Positions 19,750-22,700 of a stretch of DNA of 64,000 nucleotides are shown one piece after another. The DNA comes from Urechis unicinctus. Taxonomy: Eukaryota; Annelida; Polychaeta; Xenopneusta; Urechidae. The stretch lies in the NCBI GenBank assembly GCA_034190875.2, contig CM067356.1, forward strand, positions 20,545,033 to 20,609,032, read 5' to 3'. The stretch's first letter is position 1, and each line of letters starts with the position of its first letter. The notes under the pieces were generated by a model that was not told the DNA's origin, did not search any database, and was given only the letters and a program-made list of their open reading frames with translations. A program made the position numbers and the translations under genes.

Positions 19750-22700
19750 ATGAGCCACCCAAGTACTGCGCAGAACGGCTGTAGCCTTGAAGATTGTCAT
19801 ACAAATCTTTTTGCATTGGTGAGCCGATACGATAAATTGAATCTAGGTTCACAAATTTAAGGCACATTAGGTTTGGGTTTCTATTTAACGCGAAGCATTA
19901 GGTTTGAAATATGTCGTCTGCCGTGCTGCACCAACTGTGTTATCGACACTTGTTTAATATTAGAGCTAACGCAGTTTCGTGGAACGTGTAAATGCATGTT
20001 AAACTGCGTGATCTTGGAGAAATTCTCTCAGACACGATTTAGGTCATCTGTTGTCAGGTTCATCCACAGGGCAGCATTGTCAGCTGATAACGCACGATCA
20101 TCAAATCATTCTCAGTTTGCCACTTAAGCTCCCAATTCAACTATTCGCTGCCCACATATGTTTGTGTCTGTTAATTTTGCCTCATCTCACATCACTGATA
20201 TTTTAAAGGCTGTCATAAGTAAGTAAGTTAATATGTTGATTGTCCTCTGGGCTAATAGTCTACGTCCCTCCTGTTAAAAGTGTTTATGATAGTACCTTTG
20301 TCTCCCTTCACCAGTGATGTATGGTGTTTTCTTTACTGTTGTAATGTTTCATAAAATGCTGTGCTGGATCTCAGGAGGGGCAGAAAGAACGTCAGGTTCT
20401 TCCTAATAATCTTTCATTTAAATGAAGCTCTGTACCATTCACCAAATTGCTATCTAATGATCCCTACATTGTATTTAAGTCCCCTGTATCATGAAGGTGC
20501 ATATGCTTTTTCATTGCATTGCCACAAAGCAATAATTATGGAAGGGTCTATTTATAAAGCGAATTTACTTTAAGCTGAAATCATAAGTTGCTATGCAATC
20601 AGTTGTATAAAATATAGCCAACAAACCATCCCAATTCCAATTTTGTGGATTTGGTTTGTCATTGGCTGATATTATAAGCATCAACTTCTGAATATTATCC
20701 TAAGCTCTAGTGCTTGTCTAGTTGATGAAATTAGTGGATTTTGATCACAGGTGACTTTTTGTGGGTCCCCATTGATTGTACATCCTTGGTTGCATTCCAA
20801 CCCCAGATTCTTCCCGTGGACCTGATGTCTGCCCCATATAATCTGTTTTAGTTGTCAATTTCATATGAGCTTTCAAATTGAGATAATCATTTGGGAAAAG
20901 GCTACTTGCGGTTTTGTTCATGCTCAGGAATTGTGATAAATAATCATTAAGATGGATGTGATCGGTGGAGTGGTTTGCCAGTGGATAGCGTCTTGTGGAT
21001 TGACAACTAGAGTTTGGCTGTTATTTGCTGTACATATGCAATGTTAATGGAGAAGGCAGATGGATATGGTGGTAGCAATTATGGCATTGCTGGAAGGAAA
21101 AGTGGATGTTTTGTATGATCATTCTAACAAGCTCTACAGCCAATTAGTGATAGGCTTTAGTATAGTTTTTGTTTCTGGGTTCACTGCCAAGTTTTATTCC
21201 AGGTGGGGGAGGCACTTGGCCTTATTCTGGATAGGGGTGTGCCGAGGGACCTCGAAAACCCATACCAGTCGTACAAGGTCAAAATGGCCAAAAGCATACC
21301 CCGTCGTACAAGGTATTATCCGAATGTATAACCCGTCGTACAGATTGAAGCTGAAAAACATACCCCGTTATACATGTATGAGGCCCAAAAAACCCGTCGT
21401 ACAAGTTGAGAGGCCCAAAAAACATACCCCATCACGTGGCACATATAAACTACCTCTTAACACTTAAGTGCCCCCCCCCCCCCGGGTTTTATTGTACTTA
21501 ATCCTAATTCATGTCAAGTTTTTTTTTCAAATTTCCAAGTTATCAAACAGTTGCTTGCCTTTAGGTGCTAATTAAACAAACTGCAGATGAGCTGGGCTCT
21601 CCTGAGAACTTCCTGTTTGATTTAATTGGATGGTCATGATTGGATGAATTCTAGGAATAAGTATACACTATTTTATACACAGTGACCCTAGGTATATGAG
21701 CAATATTAAATTAAAATGAAAAGAGGGGAATTAATTTCAACAGATATGTACTATTGCTTCTATGGTATTGATACTGTTGGCAATTTATTCCTCAACTGAA
21801 TTAGAAATATGTTAAAGCACTGTTTGATATACATATAATTACTGATTTTACTCGCATTGATCACACCCATTCAATGCACCTTCCCTTGTTCCATCTTGAA
21901 TTCATACCAAATTGAAAGAGCATGAAACTTAAACCAGTAAATTTGTTTTTGAGTAATAGTTCATGAACCAAATTGAGTTTTATGATATAATCATTAGTTT
22001 TAGTATATTGAATATTATACCAACCTAATGCAGGTTGATAATCCCTTATCTCTAATCAGGAAACCTCTGAATTCAGGAATTTCTTTTTGGGCGCCGGCTT
22101 TTGGCCAAGACGCCAGATTATCATTATTATGCAGTTTCTACAATATAATAGCATGGGGTTGACTTGAGAGTAGTTCGTTAAGTGACTTTGAGCAACTTTT
22201 ACCATTGCCGCTCATCCACCTGGGCGGCCGACATTTTGATAGTCGCAAAGCCCGTTGGTATTGCAGCTGATGGAGTATGGGCCCAAGTCGGTGAATGCTG
22301 CAACGACAAAATTATTGAGCTTTCGATACTTAGTCACTTCTTTTTTAAATTTTTTTCAACAGATTACCCACTCTTAAAAGATATTAAATTTAGCTTGCGA
22401 CCTAATTTCCATCGCCTTGTCATTGTTCACAATAACATGGTGGAAGTGGACAAGACTGCAATCATTGAGAAATATTTGGTTATTCCCAATGATTGGGCAA
22501 TGTGTTGATTGTAGACCCCTGAGCTATGGCATTATTATGGATGTATAAACGTATTCCGAAATCCGTAAAATTATTTAATCCGGAACTAGTGCGGCCTCAA
22601 GCATTTCTGATGAGGGATCCTCAACCTGTACATCATTTGCATATTGTTCTGGTGACATATAGCAGTAATTTTTATGGACAGGACTTAATAAAGAATACAA

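Follow-up and report, generated by a model that had tools for sequence, protein, structure and literature searches.

What kind of sequence is the short element with poly-G and poly-C ends that occurs twice in this region, and what could have brought it there? The window analyzed here is the whole stretch of 64,000 nucleotides, G000:C15:20545033-20609032, from a eukaryote genome, probably that of an animal, of 1.19 Gb in 926 contigs. The element is very probably one copy of a young, recently active, high-copy and non-coding MITE family. We infer that it moves by cut-and-paste with the help of a P-type or hAT-type transposase, these two types of enzyme being favored about equally and a Mutator-like (MULE) enzyme less.

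A sequence-only reading of the window had described two copies of one element on opposite strands, about 42 kb apart, with homopolymer inverted ends closed by CACTT/AAGTG, repeats of an internal motif and an 8-bp flanking duplication. Direct reading of both copies bore out each of these observations (Table 1), and the ends proved consistent among family copies. Copy 1 runs in the order GTTTTATT, CCAGGTGGGGGAGGCACTT ... AAGTG C13 GG, GTTTTATT, with an exact duplication, and copy 2 on the minus strand in the order CCAAAGAG, CCC G15 CACTT ... AAGTG C13 TCGGG, CCGAAGAG, with duplications that agree at seven of eight bases. No inverted repeat listed for the window is longer than the one they form, which measures 193 nt, is 91% complementary and has its halves 42101 nt apart. 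Copy 1, in which five CCCGTCGTACAAG motifs and one degenerate motif can be recognized by eye, is 91% identical to copy 2 and is the older or divergent one of the two; its left G-tract is short and interrupted (GGTGGGGGAGG), marking it as a worn member. One read-through frame of the six across positions 20900-21800 gave no Pfam match, and Rfam held no match to the element.

Table 1. Coordinates in the window of the two element copies, their parts and a related empty site
Feature	Position	Strand	Basis
MITE copy 1, whole element between the duplications	21199..21485	+	read directly; genome search
Copy 1, left 8-bp target site duplication GTTTTATT	21191..21198	.	read directly; family statistics
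Copy 1, right 8-bp target site duplication GTTTTATT	21486..21493	.	read directly
Copy 1, left terminal repeat CCAGGTGGGGGAGGCACTT (tip, interrupted G-tract, CACTT)	21199..21217	+	
Copy 1, left inner block TGTGCCGAGGGAC; family consensus TGTGCCGCGGGAC	21238..21250	+	
Copy 1, internal motif 1 CCAGTCGTACAAG	21265..21277	+	read directly; consensus
Copy 1, internal motif 2 CCCGTCGTACAAG	21300..21312	+	read directly; consensus
Copy 1, internal motif 3 CCCGTCGTACAGA	21332..21344	+	read directly; consensus
Copy 1, internal motif 4 CCCGTTATACATG	21364..21376	+	read directly; consensus
Copy 1, internal motif 5 CCCGTCGTACAAG	21393..21405	+	read directly; consensus
Copy 1, degenerate motif 6 CCCCATCACGTGG, overlapping the right inner block	21427..21439	+	read directly
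Copy 1, right inner block, mutated; consensus is the reverse complement of the left block	21431..21443	-	
Copy 1, right terminal repeat CACTTAAGTG-C13-GG	21461..21485	+	
MITE copy 2, near the young family copies	63403..63695	-	read directly; genome search
Copy 2, target site duplication, minus-strand CCGAAGAG	63395..63402	.	read directly
Copy 2, target site duplication, minus-strand CCAAAGAG	63696..63703	.	read directly
Paralogous empty site: repeat hit by genome copy L033, element absent	61781..61960	-	

The window also contains exons of a Mediator subunit 13 gene at 45012-46713 (Med13_C, E 3.7e-60; medPIWI MID, 5.3e-9). It holds several minisatellites as well, the large one at 59600-61100 consisting of 27-bp units (TTAACGTACAGTATATAACCTAGCTAG and variants) and others lying at 57200-58400 (units of 30 and 19 bp), 10940-11900 (42 bp), 3430-4120 (23/46 bp), 4950-5370 (40 bp) and 27340-27620 (36 bp).

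Genome searches with both copies, the check that had been proposed for the element, returned many interspersed matches with 8-bp duplications, and with empty sites at paralogous loci. The best 40 of 2442 candidates were scored for copy 1 and the best 40 of 2308 for copy 2. All of these matches had E values of about 3e-110 or lower, those of copy 2 were 97-100% identical to it, and among the listed matches family copies occurred on every contig from C1 to C17. An exact 23-base left end (GGGGCACTTGGCCTTATTCTGGA) is present 1252 times genome-wide and an exact 17-base right end (TACACTTAAGTGCCCCC) 2347 times, the latter count taking in some diverged related units; the backward-pattern controls gave 0 in both cases. 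An exact 22-base left end was absent from the viral and prokaryote contigs searched. Between CCC-G(n)-CACTT and AAGTG-C(n)-GGG the family has a core of ~257 bp. Median divergence from the consensus was 2.3% for 95 full copies, a set chosen by similarity and hence biased toward the query, and 3.1% for 26 copies of a C1 sample biased only by the required left end, both sets holding a few copies read twice or in tandem.

The flanks of these copies indicate how they came to lie where they do. From 102 distinct both-ended copies we took the 80 with definable CCCG and CGGG tips, left out the 22 without them and scored the duplication with a boundary slide of 2 allowed. Among these uncollapsed copies the 8-bp duplication was exact in 59 and matched at seven or more bases in 74; collapsing them to 77 distinct insertions gave 59 exact and 71 at seven or more, with fewer than seven matching bases in the other six. 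A subset from C1, picked by end pattern and not by full-length similarity, yielded 15 exact duplications and 21 at seven or more among 22 collapsed insertions. When left and right flanks were shuffled among 73 tip-bearing copies, 0.05 exact duplications and 1.2 at seven or more were obtained. With fixed anchors, the identity abutting the tips of 73 copies extended over 8 bases in 39, 7 bases in four, 9 bases in one and 10 bases in none. These tip-anchored tests supersede a loosely anchored one whose background was high: 49 of 64 were exact where 6.5 were expected.

Empty sites were found in four paralogous pairs: L033 against the window, L058 against L033, L088 against L105, and L025 against L026. 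Each presents a single, partly diverged target from which tips and tract are absent, and the identity of the flanks (71-91% in these four pairs, 64-91% over the flank matches kept) identifies these sites as related repeats, not alleles. At L029 a young copy is nested in an older family member, and by eye GCCGCGGG stands to either side of it. From the four empty sites and this nesting it follows that the entire CCC-G(n) ... C(n)-GGG sequence was delivered by the element. The family thus displays what is expected of a MITE: terminal inverted repeats, consisting of CCC-G(n)-CACTT at both ends and an inner block that matches at 12 of 13 positions, in a short, non-coding element with a duplication of fixed length and matching empty sites.

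Inconsistent ends, missing 8-bp duplications or a tandem satellite arrangement had been named beforehand as grounds for abandoning the MITE, and the family as a whole has none of these. Tandem copies do exist, four of them at ~1.3-kb spacing at L090-L093 on C1 and three at ~0.4 kb at L107/L108, and they are what would speak for a satellite or a segmental duplication in place of a transposon. However, 24 of the first 30 places on C1 lie outside both tandem clusters, copies are found on each of C1-C17, mostly with an 8-bp duplication of their own, and the paralogous empty sites refute such an origin, the probability of which we regard as negligible. L090-L093 (C1:20918375-20922541) is a single MITE insertion present four times in tandem with a period of about 1.3 kb, an incipient satellite that includes the element, and at L107 (C1:33211702-33212805) the locus was duplicated in tandem, two of the copies retaining no more than the first 70 bp of the element and the third being complete.

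The interior of the element had been suggested as a possible subterminal array of transposase-binding sites, a proposal that its layout does not sustain. In the 95-copy consensus the CCCGTCGTACAAG motif starts at 0-based positions 52, 87, 119, 151 and 179, a spacing of 28-35 bp, and a degenerate sixth motif precedes the right end. The array runs in one direction through the interior; as it has no mirrored counterpart, it does not correspond to the paired subterminal arrays usually seen. The number of motifs also varies, the array being shorter or longer in L081, L082, L097, L125 and the older copy at L029, and the ends of L125 lie about 416 bp apart by their coordinates.

An inverted feature is nevertheless present near both ends of the element. 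The inner block TGTGCCGCGSGAC reads TGTGCCGCGGGAC on the left and TGTGCCGCGCGAC on the reverse strand on the right, at 0-based positions 25 and 27, respectively, from the C of CACTT. Its 12/13 match was equalled by 1 of 1000 base shuffles, and by eye the block is largely kept in the diverged sister unit described below. We regard it as a putative transposase recognition site and a better candidate for this role than the array. L124 (C1:37485416-37485519), a 104-bp version from which the internal array is deleted, lies in a TA-rich microsatellite. Used as a query, it returned among the best 40 of 120 candidates only itself over the full query length, and as a single full match that may stem from a deletion after insertion it was dropped as proof that the array is dispensable.

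The homopolymer tracts, the unusual feature of the family, vary in length. Across 82 copies they measure 7-32 nt on the left and 3-52 nt on the right, with medians of 15 and 14, respectively, the extreme lengths being rough, as the regular expression that defines a tract tolerates interruptions. Copy 2 and its closest relatives, 14 copies in all with an identity to copy 2 of at least 98%, have tracts of 8-19 nt on the left and 8-23 nt on the right. No correlation exists between the lengths of the two tracts of a copy (rho 0.11, p 0.32, n=79), and the relation of tract length to identity with copy 2 is weakly positive and not significant (rho 0.19/0.21, p 0.08/0.06). Copies of one insertion that were duplicated together with their flanks (L084/L085 and L090-L093) have unlike tract lengths and interruptions, and it follows that tracts do change after insertion.

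The simpler and more likely account of this variation is that inserted tracts slipped, starting from a short functional length of about 8. It is doubtful that the CCC tip and the inner block are instead separate modules for the transposase, with a variable homopolymer spacer tolerated between them. On such a modular reading the distance between cleavage and binding site would not be fixed, which we consider improbable, and the G/C homopolymer would be no scar but would serve, perhaps in folded form, as a functional component of the end, which seems to us equally improbable. If a variable poly-G spacer does allow transposition, the assumed fixed distance between cut and binding site would be put to the test. 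Poly-G ends are difficult to sequence and assemble, and families that carry them may consequently be under-reported.

Our preferred explanation for the family runs as follows. A transposase supplied in trans would recognize the inner block TGTGCCGCGSGAC, about 26-28 bp inside CACTT, and would cut at the CCC/GGG tips. The element inserts into a weak 14-bp palindrome, TRTGKTNNAMCAYA, whose central 8 bp become duplicated, and the G and C tracts afterwards change in length, probably by slippage.

Which enzyme could do this is addressed by the target sites themselves. Symmetrized over 58 targets, the motif is T-R-T-[G-K-T-N-N-A-M-C]-A-Y-A, 14 bp in which the brackets enclose the duplicated octamer; it is a weak motif, with no base above 0.49. 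Both halves are visible before symmetrizing in 59 targets (G1 in 31, T3 in 29, A6 in 28, A7 in 29, C8 in 23 and A9 in 32). The cited parts of the work by Linheiro and Bergman (PMC3276498) describe for the hAT element hobo a target palindrome of 14 bp with the core GTNCGNAC and duplications of 8 bp, and likewise for the P-element, with the core GTCCGGAC. For 1360 of the P superfamily they give a 7-bp duplication and the target GTTNAAC, which is near the G-K-T-N-N-A-M-C core of the present family. As a palindromic target is thus reported for P-type and hAT elements alike, an attribution to hAT alone is not justified, and it is these target comparisons that lead us to favor the two about equally and a MULE less.

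Transposase domains of most candidate superfamilies are present in the genome. At least 150 hAT domains matched (best 150 of 567 candidates scored), as did at least 151 P RNase H domains (best 150 of 331), 6 P HTH domains (82 of 82), at least 78 KDZ domains of the Zisupton group (best 150 of 160) and at least 150 MULE domains (best 150 of 354). All of these enzymes are possible trans-mobilizers. Merlin was ruled out as a partner, the genome search for an IS1595-type transposase having given no match among the two candidates, both of them scored.

The sequence-only reading had suggested mobilization by hAT, and only part of that suggestion stood. Tips of hAT elements follow a consensus of the CA(G/A)NG kind, whereas those of the present element are CCCGGG. 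The 8-bp duplication does fit, and together with the short terminal repeats it agrees with hAT elements as presented in the cited sections of PMC3942097; the target of hobo and the abundance of hAT domains point the same way. However, P-type elements give a like target and duplication length, and the five hAT loci that were read (L110-L114) lack the ends of the element. Four of them showed no ends of their own and the terminal repeats of the fifth, L113, are quite different (TAAGGCTCCCACG), so that an autonomous hAT with matching ends, which had been suggested as a thing to look for, was found at none of the five. A specifically hAT MITE is therefore possible rather than probable. L113 itself (C9:60231800-60235600) is an apparently complete member of a separate hAT family, ~2.96 kb long and with a hAT domain, whose terminal repeat matches at 14 of the 14 bases compared and is accompanied by the 8-bp repeat CTGGTAAG.

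Membership in the P superfamily is a reasonable conjecture that likewise stays short of probable. Besides the abundant RNase H domains and the targets of the P-element and 1360, it can draw on Galileo, for which the cited parts of PMC4168063 describe a palindromic target, duplications of 7-8 bp and ends that in some copies contain tandem direct repeats; a palindromic GT..AC target duplicated over 7-8 bp, as in the P superfamily, is indeed what the family has. Set against this, its tips are not known to resemble any P terminal sequence, and the four P loci read (L109 and L115-L117) lack the ends of the element, own ends being visible in none of them. In all, nine loci (five hAT, four P; L109-L117), a small part of the hundreds available, were without exact GGGGCACTT and AAGTGCCCC, and L113 was the only one among them whose own two ends were both visible. 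At L109 a GGGGGGGGGGCACTAGG lying upstream of a P-like gene was dropped as a candidate, no right end occurring in the stretch read.

Longer relatives of the element were also sought from its ends. At 50 left-end places on C1 (30 plus 20), tandem cases aside, the two ends were never more than about 420 bp apart, a weak negative result, with coding tested only downstream of L123 and L135. At L123, L130 and L135 the sequence read contained no right end. Followed 1.6 kb further, L123 and L135 again showed none, the former passing into a run of N and the latter into a Urm1 domain. L130 was dropped as a truncated copy, and by eye alone its adjoining stretch resembles a LINE reverse transcriptase.

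Right ends that lack a partner, whether through mutation or because they come from related units, show that a single MITE does not account for the whole family. The first 100 listed right ends all lie on C1; an exact left end occurs within 600 bp of 27 of them, leaving 73 without one. That part of C1 contains 56 exact left ends, of which 27 are in such pairs. Ordinary copies with an inexact left end (e.g., L007 and L071) account for some of the right ends without a partner. Inward-facing pairs of right-type ends, when followed up, revealed a related unit at C1:28295682-28301458 (L141, L142, L143, L144 and L145), where two arms that are inverted copies of each other, 96% identical over 232-250 aligned bases, extend outward without a visible end in the stretch read. 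Each arm holds a diverged copy of the unit, about 80-83% identical to the consensus, and for the left arm, which was read on both sides of the unit, ATGCTAAG flanks it on either side. Most simply, a sister MITE would have entered an arm of a larger repeat and then spread to both arms; other transposons have been reported within the arms of Galileo in the cited part of PMC4168063. Within the roughly 5 kb that the arms enclose in the C1 example is an open Kelch-type reading frame of 276 aa; it may be a host exon captured by a transposon, or just a gene located between two arms.

Arm copies are highly similar to each other across the genome, the best 40 of 2197 candidates being 98-100% identical. 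One of them, at C17:34909895-34910198, is 1.5 kb from an open MULE domain (C17:34908107-34908394) that points away from it, as judged by coordinates only. By our own arithmetic about 0.03 such neighbors would be expected by chance among the listed hits, and on this ground the larger inverted repeat may be Mutator-like.

It is unlikely that the MITE itself is Mutator-like. MULE domains are abundant, a diverged copy of the unit sits in the long-arm repeat near one of them, and Muta1 of Aedes, according to the cited parts of PMC5225508, has 8- or 9-bp duplications, an imperfect palindromic tip of 10 bp and subterminal tandem repeats; the 8-bp duplication found here is within the 8-10 bp given for MULEs there. 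The same source describes typical terminal repeats of more than 100 bp, whereas similarity between the ends of the present element is confined to the tip, CACTT and the 13-bp block ending about 40 bp from CACTT. The family also prefers a palindromic target and is best described by 8 bp, as opposed to the 8 or 9 bp without apparent preference in that account of Muta1. Finally, the unit in the long arm has its own 8-bp flanking repeat and looks like a passenger.

Among the paper listings covered, none named such an element, and none of the papers returned for CCCGTCGTAC concerns transposons by title. As far as these paper listings tell, with a comparison to Repbase and Dfam outside their scope, we are dealing with a new family of a known kind, an otherwise ordinary, if handsome, MITE. 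Its copies of 98-99% identity, its target motif and its ready empty sites make it well suited to tracing the transposase that mobilizes it.

Several known systems share individual traits with the family. Pearl-family MITEs are related to Helitrons, and Pearl/Helentron elements have Helitron-type ends and no target duplication. Membership in that group was rejected, as the present element has inverted ends and 8-bp duplications. The tandem-repeat MITEs of bivalves in this family (CvA and DTC84; PMC5139131), as far as the cited passages describe them, are likewise short and non-autonomous and vary in the number of internal repeats, although those repeats are satellite-like and the inverted ends and 8-bp duplications are traits of the element studied here. 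Coral CMITEs also combine a conserved interior with tandem copies, but the cited part of PMC2872659 relates them to piggyBac-like elements. The hAT MITEs of Drosophila (Mar, and BuT2 in the cited parts of PMC3942097) are similar in being short and non-coding, with similar copies and 8-bp duplications, and differ from the present family in its CCC-G(n)-CACTT tips with a variable homopolymer and its internal direct array. With the P-element, 1360 and Galileo, in the cited sections of PMC3276498 and PMC4168063, it shares duplications of 7-8 bp and a palindromic GT..AC target, and the terminal repeats of Galileo can contain direct tandem repeats and inserted transposons; the tips of the P-superfamily elements are different, however, and the terminal repeats of Galileo are much longer. 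Muta1, the Aedes aegypti MULE, resembles it in having a palindromic tip, subterminal tandem repeats and possible 8-bp duplications, yet in the cited account (PMC5225508) it has terminal repeats of 145 bp and duplications of 8 or 9 bp without target preference, whereas the array of the present family runs as direct repeats across the interior.
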